Shown piece by piece: positions 14,692 through 64,000 of a DNA stretch of 64,000 nucleotides. The notes under the pieces are model-generated. The model was not told the origin of the DNA. It searched no databases and saw only the letters and a program-made list of their open reading frames with translations. Made by a program: the position numbers and the translations under genes. The DNA is taken from positions 34,069-98,068 of the IMG/VR virus record IMGVR_UViG_3300007735_000794; one strand, written 5' to 3'. Each line of letters starts with the position of its first letter. Position 1 is the stretch's first letter. Source of the DNA: a virus.

Positions 14692-15993
14692 ATGTCCTCA
14701 AATAATGATAAAAGAAAAACGTTTGTAGTAGATACTTCTGTTTTGCTATATGATAAATGTGCAATTCACTCATTTACTGGAAATGACGTTGTAATTCCAT
14801 TGATCGTTTTAGATGAGCTTGATCGAAACAAAGACAAGCCCGGTCTTGTTGGTGAAAACGCAAGATACGTCAATCGTTTTCTAGACGATCTCAGAAAAGA
14901 GAATAAATTATTTGAAACTATCAATCTGAAAAATGATCAAACTATTCGTGTAGAAATTGAATCACATCAAGTGCCACAAGGACTTGATCCAAGCTTTGGT
15001 GATAACAAGATCATTGCAACTGCGTATTATCTTACAAAATCAATGCTCAATACAAAAGTTGTTATGGTGACAAAAGATATCAACTTTAGAATTAAATGTG
15101 ATGCATTAGGAATCGAAGCTGACGATTACTACAAAGATAGAGTTATACAGAACAAAGACGCAATCTATTCGGGTATGCAAGAAATAGAAACTCAAGATGA
15201 TTTCTTGATTGACAATTTTTATAAACAAGGATTTGTTAGCACAAATCTAATTGAAAATGATTTCTATAAGAATCAATATATCTCGCTAAAGTCTGGAAGC
15301 AAATCATTGCTTGGCATAAACAATGACGGAAGAATCATCCCGCTTATCAATAAAATTGATTCTGCAGCAAAAATAAAAGCAAGAAATAAAGAACAGCTAT
15401 TCGCAATAGACCTTCTTTCACGTGAAGAAATAAAACTCGTTTCAATGACAGGAATTGCAGGATCAGGAAAAACTTTCTTAACACTCCTCGCAGGGCTTGC
15501 AGGAATTCAAGACAAAAAATATGAAAGAATCATTATCACAAGATCATTACAGACTGTCGGAAAAGATATTGGTTTTTTGCCAGGCGATATCAATGAAAAA
15601 ATGTCGCCTTGGCTCTCACCAATTTTAGATAACTTTAGACATGTATTCAAAGATCTTTCATATTTTGAAATAATGCGACAAAAAGGTCAAATTGAAATTA
15701 CGCCGCTCGCATTTATTCGTGGTAGAACATTTAACAATACATTTTTGATCGTAGACGAAGCTCAAAATTCTACAATACACGAACTAAAGACTGTAATTAC
15801 ACGCGTCGGCGAAAATTCAAAAGTCGTATTGTTGGGCGATACAGACCAAATTGATACGCCATATCTCGATAGTCTATCAAATGGTTTGACAATCGTCGTA
15901 GAAAAATTTAAAAATCACGATATTACAGGACATATCACATTAACTAAGGGCGAACGTTCACAGCTTGCAACTTTAGCATCTAAAATAATTTAG
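14692..15993 (+). CDS. phoH: PIN-PhoH ATPase
   Basis: This 433-residue protein fuses an N-terminal PIN nuclease domain (T-F-V-V-D-T-S-V-L with D14, D-E-L-D at 41-44, and G-D-N-K-I-I near 104) to a PhoH ATPase. The Walker A is G-I-A-G-S-G-K-T (254-261) and the Walker B is V-D-E-A-Q (354-358). The layout matches the PhoH2/YlaK type, which acts on RNA as helicase plus nuclease. Phage PhoH is common, often linked to phosphate stress or RNA turnover, but its role in infection is not settled. It is a single-gene unit with a GAGAG ribosome site before the ATG. Confidence 0.9.
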   Translation: MSSNNDKRKTFVVDTSVLLYDKCAIHSFTGNDVVIPLIVLDELDRNKDKPGLVGENARYVNRFLDDLRKENKLFETINLKNDQTIRVEIESHQVPQGLDPSFGDNKIIATAYYLTKSMLNTKVVMVTKDINFRIKCDALGIEADDYYKDRVIQNKDAIYSGMQEIETQDDFLIDNFYKQGFVSTNLIENDFYKNQYISLKSGSKSLLGINNDGRIIPLINKIDSAAKIKARNKEQLFAIDLLSREEIKLVSMTGIAGSGKTFLTLLAGLAGIQDKKYERIIITRSLQTVGKDIGFLPGDINEKMSPWLSPILDNFRHVFKDLSYFEIMRQKGQIEITPLAFIRGRTFNNTFLIVDEAQNSTIHELKTVITRVGENSKVVLLGDTDQIDTPYLDSLSNGLTIVVEKFKNHDITGHITLTKGERSQLATLASKII

Positions 15994-36566: not shown

Positions 36567-38417
36567 ATGACATCACACAATATTAAGAAGAATCTATTGC
36601 AAAAGAAAGATAGATCATACTTGAATAAAGACTTTAATGCATTTAAAGCAGAGCTGCTTCGTTATGCAAAAACTTATTTTCCCGACCAGATACAAGATTT
36701 TAGCGATGGTTCACTCGGCGGTATGTTTAATGATTTGACTTCGTATGTTGGCGATGTAATGTCATTTTATCTTGATCACCAGTTTAACGAATTGAATCTT
36801 GAAACTGCAGTTGAGCCAACAAATATTGAACGTCAAATAAGGCTTGCAGGCGTAAAGATAACTGGCGCTGCACCATCGATCTGCGAAGTTAACTTCTATA
36901 TCAAAGTTGAAGCAGAATTATCATCAGGCGTTTATCAACCAAAATCATCATATCTTCCAATCATCAAAACAAGAACAAAATTACAGTCTAATAACGGGAC
37001 AGTATTTGAATTGTTAGATGATATTGATTTTTCAGAAACAGATACATCAGGAAAGCTGCTAGCATCAATAAGCGTTCTAACGCAAGACGCCTCAGGAAAT
37101 CCAACAACATACTCACTTATGCGTAAAGGATTGTGCACGTCTGGTGAAACAATAGAAGAAAAAGTAGTTATTCCAAACACATTTCTACCATTTAGAACAA
37201 TAACATTAGCAAAAAGCAACGTGTCAGAAATCTTAAGCGTCGTTGACACTGATTTAAACGAGTATTATGAAGTTGCATCATTAATCAATGATGTCGTTTT
37301 TAAAAAGATAGAAAACACAACAAAAGATGCATCAACTGTGCCAGAAAAGTTAATCATTGTTCCTGCACCATATAGGTATGTTACAAAAACGACAGCGAAT
37401 ACAGCAATTACATCGCTTGTATTCGGCTCTGGAAGAGCAGATTCACTTGACGATGATATAATTCCAGATCCAAGCGAACTTGCATTGCCACTTTACGGAG
37501 ACAGAAAGACATTTAGAAGAGTTGCGATAGATCCAAATTCATTGTTACAAACAAAAAGTTTGGGTGTTTCACCCGTTAATACAACATTAACAATCAATTA
37601 CCGCGCTGGCGGTGGTCTGACACACAATGTTTCATCAAACTCGATACGATCAATCATTTCATTGAACACAAAATTCAATCAATCAGTTCCGTCGTCAAAG
37701 ATTGCGCAAATTAGAGCTTCGTTAGAAGTCAAAAATGAAAAAAGTGCACAAGGTGGAGAAAATATTCCATCGCTCAATGAGTTAAGAGCAATTGCATTAA
37801 ATTACAAAAATGCACAATCAAGAATTGTGACGAAGTCAGATCTTATTTCTCGAATCTATTCAATGCCGCCAAACTTTGGGCGTGTCTATCGAGTCGGGAC
37901 AGCGCCCAATCCAACAAATCCACTATCAACAATTTTATACATCATAAGCAGAGATATCGATGGCTATTTGACAATTTCACCTGACACATTGAAAATCAAT
38001 CTTGCAAAATACCTAAACGAATTTAGGCTCACATCAGACGCATATGACATACTTGACGCGCCCATAGTCAATTACAAATTTACGTATAGCGTTGCTTTAT
38101 CAGACAATGTTGACAAAACAACGACATTACAAACAATAAATAAAAAAATCGCTGAGTATCTCGACACAAAGAATTTTCAAATAGATCAACCCATAGTCGT
38201 AAGTGATATATTGAATATCATACTTAATCAATATGGCGTCATATCTTTAGAAAAGACAAAATTTACAAATTTATCGGGAACTGTTAGTGATAGAATATAT
38301 TCAAATACAACATATAATCTTGAAACAAACACACAAAAAGGGATAGTACGACCTCCAGTCGGCGGCATATTCGAATTAAAATATCAAGATTATGATATAA
38401 TAGGAAGTGCAGTCTAA
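36567..38417 (+). CDS. 6: Baseplate wedge protein gp6 (J-like)
   Basis: This 616-residue protein has the gp6/gpJ opening: L-N-K-D-F-N-A-F-K-A-E-L-L-R-Y-A-K, D-F-S-D-G-S-L-G-G-M-F, then S-F-Y-L-D-H-Q-F-N-E (about 18-75) and I-E-R-Q-I-R-L-A-G. In T4, gp6 dimers form the baseplate inner ring. The middle is beta-rich and the C-terminal part mixed, as usual. It is close to T4 gp6 in length (660). The start lies one base after the gp25 stop and the end overlaps the next start (TAATG). Confidence 0.9.
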   Translation: MTSHNIKKNLLQKKDRSYLNKDFNAFKAELLRYAKTYFPDQIQDFSDGSLGGMFNDLTSYVGDVMSFYLDHQFNELNLETAVEPTNIERQIRLAGVKITGAAPSICEVNFYIKVEAELSSGVYQPKSSYLPIIKTRTKLQSNNGTVFELLDDIDFSETDTSGKLLASISVLTQDASGNPTTYSLMRKGLCTSGETIEEKVVIPNTFLPFRTITLAKSNVSEILSVVDTDLNEYYEVASLINDVVFKKIENTTKDASTVPEKLIIVPAPYRYVTKTTANTAITSLVFGSGRADSLDDDIIPDPSELALPLYGDRKTFRRVAIDPNSLLQTKSLGVSPVNTTLTINYRAGGGLTHNVSSNSIRSIISLNTKFNQSVPSSKIAQIRASLEVKNEKSAQGGENIPSLNELRAIALNYKNAQSRIVTKSDLISRIYSMPPNFGRVYRVGTAPNPTNPLSTILYIISRDIDGYLTISPDTLKINLAKYLNEFRLTSDAYDILDAPIVNYKFTYSVALSDNVDKTTTLQTINKKIAEYLDTKNFQIDQPIVVSDILNIILNQYGVISLEKTKFTNLSGTVSDRIYSNTTYNLETNTQKGIVRPPVGGIFELKYQDYDIIGSAV

Positions 38418-59188: not shown

Positions 59189-59719
59189 ATGGGACTTTCG
59201 CTAGGACTTGATATATCAACATCATGCACGGGTTTTTGTATACTTGATGACGACTGCAAGTTGATTAAAATCGACTTTATTAGGCTTGATAATATCGACA
59301 ATTTTTTTGAAAAAAGTGACAAAGTTGAAGAAGTTTTCAATGAAATAAAAAAAGAATTTAATATCGCAAATGTGTTTATTGAACAAAACTTGCAAGCATT
59401 CCGCCCAGGACTCTCATCAGCGTCAACGATAGACACGCTTGCAAGGTTCAACGGAACAGTTACATACATTGCTTATAAAGTATTTGGTGTTAAGCCAACT
59501 GCAATTAATGTAATCGCAGCAAGATCAGCCGTTGGACTAAAGATCGATCATAAAGACAAATCAAGAACAACAAAAGAAAAAGTTTTTGCATGGGTTTTTG
59601 CATCAATTCCTGTAAATTGGCCCACAAACAAAAAAGGCGGATTTAAACCTTCATGTTTTGATATGGCAGATTCATATGTGATAACAAAAGCTGGCATTTT
59701 ATTAAATGTAAAGAGATAG
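59189..59719 (+). CDS. RuvC-like Holliday junction resolvase
   Basis: This 176-residue protein has the RNase H-like resolvase core: G-L-D-I-S-T (D8) in the first strand, V-F-I-E-Q (E65), and F-D-M-A-D-S-Y (D158, D161) in the last helix. These four acids match the RuvC metal site. It would cut branched DNA before packaging, the job done in T4 by the unrelated endonuclease VII. It follows the last tail gene by 8 bases but belongs by function to the replication genes after it. Confidence 0.8.
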   Translation: MGLSLGLDISTSCTGFCILDDDCKLIKIDFIRLDNIDNFFEKSDKVEEVFNEIKKEFNIANVFIEQNLQAFRPGLSSASTIDTLARFNGTVTYIAYKVFGVKPTAINVIAARSAVGLKIDHKDKSRTTKEKVFAWVFASIPVNWPTNKKGGFKPSCFDMADSYVITKAGILLNVKR

Positions 59720-59740: not shown

Positions 59741-60706
59741 GTGTCATCTACATATACAGAAAGAATTAATTTCATTCAAAAATCACTTGGTAAGGGTCAA
59801 GTTTCACGTGATGGAAATGATATTTCTATTTCGTGCCCGCATTGCAAAGAACATCTAAAAAAGAAACTTGCAATTAATCTTGAAAATTGGAAATTTCATT
59901 GTTGGGTTTGCGATGCAAAAGGTAATTCACTTGTTCCTCTGCTACGAAAGTTTAGTTCAAATGAAAATTTAGCTTATTACAGAGCACATTTTCTAAATGA
60001 CAAAATTTTCGCTGCTGATTTAGAATTCGTCGAAGAGCAAGCAGTTAAATTGCCAGATGGATTTTTACCAATTGTTCTTGCAAATTTAAAACATCCAGAT
60101 GTAAAAGCAGCAATGCGTTATCTTTGTGCAAGAAACATCACAGAACATGAAATGTGGAAATTCAAGATTGGAATCACAGTAAGCGATGAAAAATTTGCAA
60201 GAAGAATAATTTTTCCATCACTTAACGCTGATTATGAAGAAAACTATTTTGTTGGAAGAAGCATCGATAAAAATGCAAGAATTCGATACATGAATGCAAT
60301 TAATGACAAAACTAGCATCATTTTTAATGATTATGCGATAGATTGGGATAAAAAAATATATTTGACAGAAGGTATTTTTGATTTTATTGCGCTAAAAGAG
60401 AATGGAACGTGTATGCTTGGTTCGTCCTTGAGCGAATCATCGCTTCTCTTTAAAAAGCTAGTAGCAAATGAATCAGATATTGTTCTTTGCTTAGACAATG
60501 ACATGGTAAAAAAGACAGCAAGAACAGCAGATTTATTAACTTCATATGGCTGCAAAGTCGAAGTGATGGATACATCATCAGCAAAAGACATAGCAGAAAT
60601 GACAAATGAACAGCTTGATATTGCAAAAGAAACAATCAAGGAATGGTCACCCAAAACTTCATTCTTATACAAGATTTCTACAATTAAAAGCGGATCAATG
60701 TTTTAA
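59741..60706 (+). CDS. DnaG-type DNA primase
   Basis: This 321-residue protein starts at GTG. It has a zinc ribbon with C32, C35, C54 and C57 (C-P-H-C and C-W-V-C) and a TOPRIM core with E210 in L-T-E-G-I-F-D and D252/D254 in C-L-D-N-D. It is as short as T4 gp61 (342 residues) and lacks a helicase-interaction tail like that of DnaG. It lays down RNA primers for the lagging strand. Its stop overlaps the stop of the converging cupin gene by 4 bases. Confidence 0.9.
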   Translation: MSSTYTERINFIQKSLGKGQVSRDGNDISISCPHCKEHLKKKLAINLENWKFHCWVCDAKGNSLVPLLRKFSSNENLAYYRAHFLNDKIFAADLEFVEEQAVKLPDGFLPIVLANLKHPDVKAAMRYLCARNITEHEMWKFKIGITVSDEKFARRIIFPSLNADYEENYFVGRSIDKNARIRYMNAINDKTSIIFNDYAIDWDKKIYLTEGIFDFIALKENGTCMLGSSLSESSLLFKKLVANESDIVLCLDNDMVKKTARTADLLTSYGCKVEVMDTSSAKDIAEMTNEQLDIAKETIKEWSPKTSFLYKISTIKSGSMF

Positions 60707-62200: not shown

Positions 62201-64000
62201 ATGAAAATTGCACACTTTGCTGACGTTCACTTTAGGGGCCTTTCGCGACACGATGAGTATCGTGAAGTATTTACGTTAGCATTTGAAAAGTTAAAACAAG
62301 AAAAGCCAGATGTTATTTACATTGGTGGTGACATAGTTCATTCAAAAACGCAAGGTATCACACCTGAGCTTATTGAAATATTAACGTGGTGGTTATCTGA
62401 ACTTGCAAAGATTGCGCCAGTTGATATGATATTGGGAAATCATGACGGCTTAATCTTGAATAAGGATAGGCAAGATGCAATAACACCAATTGTGCAAGCA
62501 CTCGATAATAACAGAATCAGACTGTTCAAACAATCTGACGTGTATGAATCACCTTGCGCAGGATTTTCATGGGTTGTCTATTCACCTTTTGATGAAGACG
62601 GGTGGAAATCGCTAGATGATAAAATCAATAAATGCAACGTAAATATCGCATTTTATCACGGCGCAATTGCAGGCTCAAAATCAGACTTGGGCATGGTGCT
62701 TGCAGGTGAAAATGAAATTTCACTATTCAAAAATTCAGATTTTGCTTTGTTGGGTGACATTCATAAACGACAATTTTTAAATGATTCATCCACAATTGCA
62801 TATTGTGGATCAACAATACAACAAAATTATGGTGAAGATACTGATAAGGGATTTTTGGTATGGGACATCAAATCAAAAACAGAATTTGATGTAAAATTTG
62901 TCAAAGTAGACAATAAATACTCATTCAATACGATAAAATTCAAGAAAAACATTGAAAATACGCTAGCAGAAGCGGCGCTGTTGAGTGAAAAAGCAAGAAT
63001 AAGATATGAACTCGAAGACGACATCTCAGATGTGACAATTCACGAGCTAACAGAGCGAACACACAGACTGAAAAACTACACAGAAGTAACATTAAAGATT
63101 GACAAGTCATCGTCATCAACGCCCGCTACAAGCAAAATCGAACATGTCGCGTCAACAAACTTCAGAGACAAAGCAACTATTATTCGTGTATTAGATGAAT
63201 ATCTTTCTGATCGAAAAGCTGATGTTCGGCAAAAACAGCTTGCATTAAAGAAATTTGAAAAGTATTATGATGACTCAATTTTTGAAGATGACATAGCAAG
63301 AAGCGTGTCGTGGTCAATTAATAGTCTTGAATTCAATAATCTTTATTCGTACGGCGTCAACAATAAAATAAACTTTGACAAGCTTAATGGCATCACTGGC
63401 ATTTTTGGACAAAATCGTGTCGGAAAATCTTCAATTATTGGCACGATAGCATACGCATTATTCAATACAACAGACCGCGGTCCAATGAAAAATGCGCACA
63501 TTGTTCATATTGATGAAGAAATTGGAAACGCAAAAGTTTCATTAACTGTGAACAATGAAAAATATGACATCGTAAGAGAAACAATAAAAACTTACAATAA
63601 AAAGGGCGACATCTTTGCACCGACGACATTGTCACTTAAAAAAGTTTGTGATGATGGTGCTGTACAAAATTTAAATGATGAACAGCGAAGAGAAACAGAA
63701 AAAGAGCTTAGAAAACTGCTTGGAACAAGTGAAGATTTTTCATATACGACTCTTGCTTCGCAAGGTCAAATGAATGCATTCATTGATGAAAAATCAACAA
63801 GTAGAAAGCAGATACTAAATCGATTTCTTGATATTGATGTCTTTGACACATATCTTGAAAAAGTCAAAAAAGACATCTTGCCCTTAAAAGCAGTAATAAA
63901 ATCAACTTCAACTATTGCCTCGTTTGAAGCACAAATAATTGAGTACGCAAGCGAACTTCGTGATTTAAATAGCACGCTCGATGAAAAACAACACACGCTT
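62201..64000 (+). CDS. Fused SbcD-SbcC (gp47-gp46) nuclease, 3' end outside window
   Basis: The frame is open from the ATG at 62201 to the window end (600 residues seen). The N-terminal part is an Mre11/SbcD/gp47 phosphoesterase: A-H-F-A-D-V-H at 4-10, G-G-D-I-V-H, G-N-H-D, then F-Y-H-G-A and G-D-I-H. After a linker (about 340-370) the SbcC/Rad50/gp46 ATPase starts with S-L-E-F-N-N-L and the Walker A G-Q-N-R-V-G-K-S (403-410). A-S-Q-G-Q-M-N-A-F follows, then coiled coil. In T4 and bacteria these are two genes; here they form one chain. It would resect DNA ends for recombination-dependent replication. The Walker B and second coiled-coil arm lie beyond the window. Confidence 0.9.
   Translation, partial: MKIAHFADVHFRGLSRHDEYREVFTLAFEKLKQEKPDVIYIGGDIVHSKTQGITPELIEILTWWLSELAKIAPVDMILGNHDGLILNKDRQDAITPIVQALDNNRIRLFKQSDVYESPCAGFSWVVYSPFDEDGWKSLDDKINKCNVNIAFYHGAIAGSKSDLGMVLAGENEISLFKNSDFALLGDIHKRQFLNDSSTIAYCGSTIQQNYGEDTDKGFLVWDIKSKTEFDVKFVKVDNKYSFNTIKFKKNIENTLAEAALLSEKARIRYELEDDISDVTIHELTERTHRLKNYTEVTLKIDKSSSSTPATSKIEHVASTNFRDKATIIRVLDEYLSDRKADVRQKQLALKKFEKYYDDSIFEDDIARSVSWSINSLEFNNLYSYGVNNKINFDKLNGITGIFGQNRVGKSSIIGTIAYALFNTTDRGPMKNAHIVHIDEEIGNAKVSLTVNNEKYDIVRETIKTYNKKGDIFAPTTLSLKKVCDDGAVQNLNDEQRRETEKELRKLLGTSEDFSYTTLASQGQMNAFIDEKSTSRKQILNRFLDIDVFDTYLEKVKKDILPLKAVIKSTSTIASFEAQIIEYASELRDLNSTLDEKQHTL

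Follow-up and report, generated by a model that had tools for sequence, protein, structure and literature searches.

Is the reading frame at the 3' end of this viral sequence, which stays open from an Mre11-type phosphoesterase into a Rad50-type ATPase, a genuine single-chain form of a complex, and how common is such a gene among related phages? The stretch of 64,000 nucleotides that we analysed (the window) is taken from a virus record of 98,068 bases (IMGVR_UViG_3300007735_000794), of which it covers bases 34069-98068, so the end of the window is the end of the contig and the 3' end of the gene is lost. Judged by its relatives, which are mostly 1,020-1,080 aa, the fusion in the window lacks ~440 residues. 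The relevant features are given below in window coordinates; the model named there is an AlphaFold model made of a full-length relative, L015 (L015:8001-11114), that is 58% identical to the window protein.

59189-59719, plus strand: RuvC-like Holliday junction resolvase (phrog_159), upstream neighbour in 80 of 112 related loci searched
59741-60706, plus strand: DnaG-type primase (phrog_47, E 2.6e-42; Toprim_2, DNAG_N), in 94 of 112 related loci searched
62201-64000, plus strand: Mre11/SbcD-Rad50/SbcC fusion gene, ATG start, 600 codons, stop-free to the contig end
62201-62935, plus strand: Mre11-type phosphoesterase core (Pfam Metallophos; catalytic columns; profile match to 3qg5_C)
62936-63169 (approximate), plus strand: capping domain of Mre11, with a low-complexity stretch (SSSSTPATS), from the secondary structure of the L015 model and the alignment
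63170-63274 (approximate), plus strand: helix-loop-helix (L015 model helices; 3qg5_C match reaching position 353; alignment across the junction)
63308-64000, plus strand: N-terminal ATPase lobe of Rad50/SbcC and the beginning of the first coiled-coil helix, truncated by the contig end (AAA_23, phrog_77, model)
63407-63430, plus strand: Walker A GQNRVGKS, residues 403-410 (from the sequence)

We found that residues 1-~360 of the window protein make up a whole Mre11/SbcD nuclease, with catalytic core, capping domain and Rad50-binding helix-loop-helix, and that residues ~370-600 are the start of a Rad50/SbcC ATPase. Two Pfam domains score above their curated cut-offs, Metallophos (residues 1-115, E 3.7e-11) and AAA_23 (residues 375-596, E 1.4e-12), and the protein has an SbcC-like match in PHROGs (phrog_77) as well as profile matches to archaeal Rad50 and E. 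coli SbcC. The preliminary description had read SbcD and SbcC in one open chain and had placed a Walker A motif at residues 403-410; both observations hold, the motif lying exactly there and the phosphoesterase being followed by the ATPase in one frame, as in Mre11/Rad50 (SbcDC) fusion proteins. The Walker A columns N405, G408 and K409 are present in 92/92 aligned sequences among the matches listed. Since the two parts share one chain, the ratio of SbcD to SbcC is fixed at 1:1.

The nuclease half retains the metal site, with two departures. Its residues in the window (D8, H10, D44, H47, N80, H81, D82, H153, D186 and H188) occupy columns that are nearly invariant over 92 aligned sequences among the matches listed, and the motifs DxH, GDxx(D/H), GNHD and the C-terminal histidines are all found, with Asp186 standing for the first His of GHxH. 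Relative to T4 gp47, two of these motifs are non-canonical: GDxxH, and GDIH in place of GHxH. A profile match to the T. maritima Mre11 chain 3qg5_C extends over residues 1-353 and includes the helix-loop-helix; this match and the L015 model, aligned to the window, indicate that the capping domain and the Rad50-binding helix-loop-helix are both kept.

In the window's own gene, the signature, Walker B, D-loop, second coiled coil and hook would fall past the contig end. In its relatives, where this half can be read, it contains a coiled coil, the hook cysteines and a second coiled coil, as well as the signature (SGMEK), Walker B (IIDEGFG) and the D-loop (LD). In the alignment, among the matches listed, Walker A and B, signature, D-loop and catalytic residues are kept in nearly all of 91 fusions. 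The L015 model (mean pLDDT 78.8; global confidence modest, pTM 0.49) is composed of nuclease, capping region (beta-alpha-beta-alpha-beta at 240-299), helix-loop-helix (helices at 321-334 and 339-355), ATPase lobe, two long helical arms and a second lobe, and its best PDB fold matches in Foldseek include chains of Mre11-Rad50 and SbcCD complexes.

At the level of sequence, then, both catalytic parts, the Mre11 helix-loop-helix and a linker are present, with Mre11 before Rad50, and the rest of the Rad50 half is seen in near relatives. We consider it highly probable that the product of the gene is a phage Mre11-Rad50 (SbcDC) enzyme for DNA-end processing, synthesised as a single polypeptide. Two chains would dimerise through their Mre11 cores and ATP-bound Rad50 heads, with the helix-loop-helix of each chain docking on the root of a coiled coil, its own or its partner's. 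Such an enzyme would resect or trim double-strand DNA ends for recombination-dependent phage replication, like T4 gp46/gp47, and might also, like them, take part in degrading host DNA. The fusion would guarantee equal amounts and co-assembly of the two parts; the chemistry need not change.

One alternative, which we judge improbable, is that the chain is cleaved after translation, or that internal re-initiation adds a separate Rad50, such that the enzyme works as the ordinary M2R2 complex of two subunits. A low-complexity stretch does precede the helix-loop-helix in some fusions (pLDDT is about 40 at residues 300-313 of the L015 model), but this disordered stretch lies inside the Mre11 half, ahead of the helix-loop-helix, rather than between the two proteins, and the linker from the helix-loop-helix to Rad50 is short and aligned across the family.

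The surroundings of the gene bear on a second alternative. The RuvC-like resolvase and the DnaG-type primase lie directly upstream of the fusion in most relatives, and in one related locus (L013) terminase large subunit-like and portal-like ORFs, read by eye, lie downstream. Thus, the gene order RuvC, primase, fusion, terminase, portal is that of a T4-like replication/packaging region. Elsewhere in the window we noted a PhoH-like gene (14692-15993; strong match to phrog_2765) and a baseplate wedge subunit-like protein (36567-38417; phrog_219) amid many long structural-type ORFs without PHROG matches. We regard it as very improbable that, instead of a recombination nuclease, the gene encodes an SMC protein of a defence or structural type with a phosphoesterase as its accessory: Lamassu and Jet SMC proteins are also among the Foldseek matches, but Rad50/SbcC match best by sequence and by fold, the match to Mre11 is a full-length one that takes in the helix-loop-helix, and the neighbours are RuvC and primase.

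We examined how far the single-chain enzyme extends beyond this contig. Searching by tblastn, we obtained full-length matches from uncultured megaphages as well as from Microcystis phage Mel-JY01, and deposited genes spanning both halves occur in Mel-JY01 (1,066 aa), in Tenacibaculum phage pT24 (1,310 aa) and in PTm1 (1,318 aa). All relatives in a first IMG/VR scan (22/22) were fused and closed, and with a second scan both halves were found in at least 111 loci (at least 91 distinct sequences), Mel-JY01 among them; the fusion is present in other phages, a point that the preliminary description had left to a wider search. Because whole-protein scans favour fused genes, the query carrying both halves, we also searched with the nuclease half alone. 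Its best 80 loci comprised 65 complete fusions, 12 fusions ended by the contig end and 3 loci cut too early to judge; there were no split pairs among these 80, and 77/77 judgeable loci were fused. An error of assembly or sequencing that removed a stop or start between two genes is a scarcely credible explanation: the fusion is seen here on a single contig in a gene running into the contig end, but in more than 90 distinct relatives the junction is likewise open and its residues align, and all judgeable loci of the nuclease-only search are fused. In particular, relatives at 48-60% identity are open in the same register through 63200-63350, where a missing base had been a concern, and sequencing error was rejected on the evidence of the relatives.

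Outside phage records, we found no fusion relative in plasmids that spanned most of the protein. One scan of bacterial genomes gave six matches: three fusions on MAG contigs (L038, L039 and L040), which are probably misbinned phage, one split pair (L041), and two that match the nuclease part only (L042 and L043). The first two of these MAG contigs, assigned to Halobacteriovorax and Methylococcaceae (109 and 306 kb), keep the phage order RuvC-primase-fusion, and their assignments possibly hint at hosts. No second full gp46-type gene was found in seven longer related records, with two weak partial matches in Mel-JY01.

Two further loci show variations on the gene. In Listeria phage LMTA-57 (L005) the two genes are fused (1,009 aa), and in the related phage WIL-1 (L204) they are annotated as two separate genes. 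In a 484 kb phage (LR756508; L003:3944-8169) a separate ORF of 305 aa, which has a Cys-rich start and a TnsA-like endonuclease domain (Pfam), interrupts the nuclease half of the fusion gene after GDIHKRQ. The interruption resembles a mobile intron that carries a homing endonuclease; an Rfam search around this copy gave no intron.

The apex of the coiled coil differs among these fusions. A C-X6-C pattern, PC-GDxFPT-C-x-F-I-K-D-A-H, with a conserved K-D-A/S-H after the second Cys, was found at the apex in 81 of the 91 distinct full fusions among the matches listed (the window's own apex lies past the contig end), and in the L015 model the conserved cysteines 714 and 721 are at the turn between the two arms. 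More distant fusions have C-X2-C, which by a rough pattern test is found in the apex region of 65/65 complete fusions among the best 80 loci of the nuclease-only search, a set centred on Mel-JY01. A first scan for CxxC had suggested a "hook-less" clade, an idea that was dropped when reading of the apex gave two conserved cysteines. A tree places the window within the C-X6-C group; its own 20-sequence clade has a support of 1.0, and support for the whole group is only 0.50-0.96, varying with the deepest members. We suggest tentatively, from sequence comparison, that the clade of the window may have an apex of another kind, in which an expanded hook, C-X6-C with conserved K-D-A/S-H residues nearby, is fused to a GDIH nuclease, such that single-chain dimers might be joined at the tip otherwise than in all characterised Rad50 hooks. 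If so, the tip contact would have another metal geometry, or would be a disulphide or metal-free contact. With GDIH for GHxH and C-X6-C for C-X2-C, activity could differ from that of classic Mre11-Rad50. We found no paper on a C-X6-C hook in a limited literature search.

We conclude that the fusion is real and conserved and that it is common among the phages of its family. These aquatic T4-like phages form a large family in which a single chain is the usual form of Mre11-Rad50 and no rarity, and their fusions, compact and natural, lend themselves to structural work on Mre11/Rad50 coupling.

Contrary to what the preliminary description had implied, the fusion as such is not new: thirteen fusions of Mre11 and Rad50 have been described, from eukaryotes and plasmids as well as from Mimivirus and a Bacillus phage, their order and linker were shown to suit the known structure of the complex, and abundant homologues in aquatic (ocean) metagenomes were argued to belong to phages (Yoshida, Claverie and Ogata 2011; PMC3175470). 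The phage fusion in the window is what that study predicted, and our limited literature search found no later paper on phage fusions. Mimivirus R555 carries the same two substitutions, a His for the third Asp of the SbcD motif (GDxxH) and an Asp at the position of P. furiosus His206 (PMC3175470), and resembles the window protein also in having Mre11 before Rad50, a retained helix-loop-helix and a short linker. It differs in belonging to a giant virus, not to a Caudoviricetes-type phage, and in length (1,351 aa, compared to about 1,040 aa). The clade of the window has C-X6-C at its apex; the hook is not discussed in PMC3175470.

Another close comparison is T4 gp47/gp46, likewise an Mre11-like nuclease and a Rad50-like ATPase for recombination, encoded next to replication genes. 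In contrast to the fusion, and as the preliminary description had it, the T4 proteins are separate, with 46.2 and 46.1 between genes 47 and 46; gp46 (560 aa) has a CPTC hook, and gp47 has GDIFD and GHFH. The E. coli SbcCD and the archaeal and T. maritima Mre11-Rad50 complexes share fold and motifs with the window protein, T. maritima Mre11 aligning over the whole nuclease half, but they consist of separate polypeptides and have a C-X2-C hook. In Microcystis phage Mel-JY01 (WWT39521.1), the same fusion adjoins a primase gene, as it does here, but the protein is only ~30% identical and its hook is C-X2-C.
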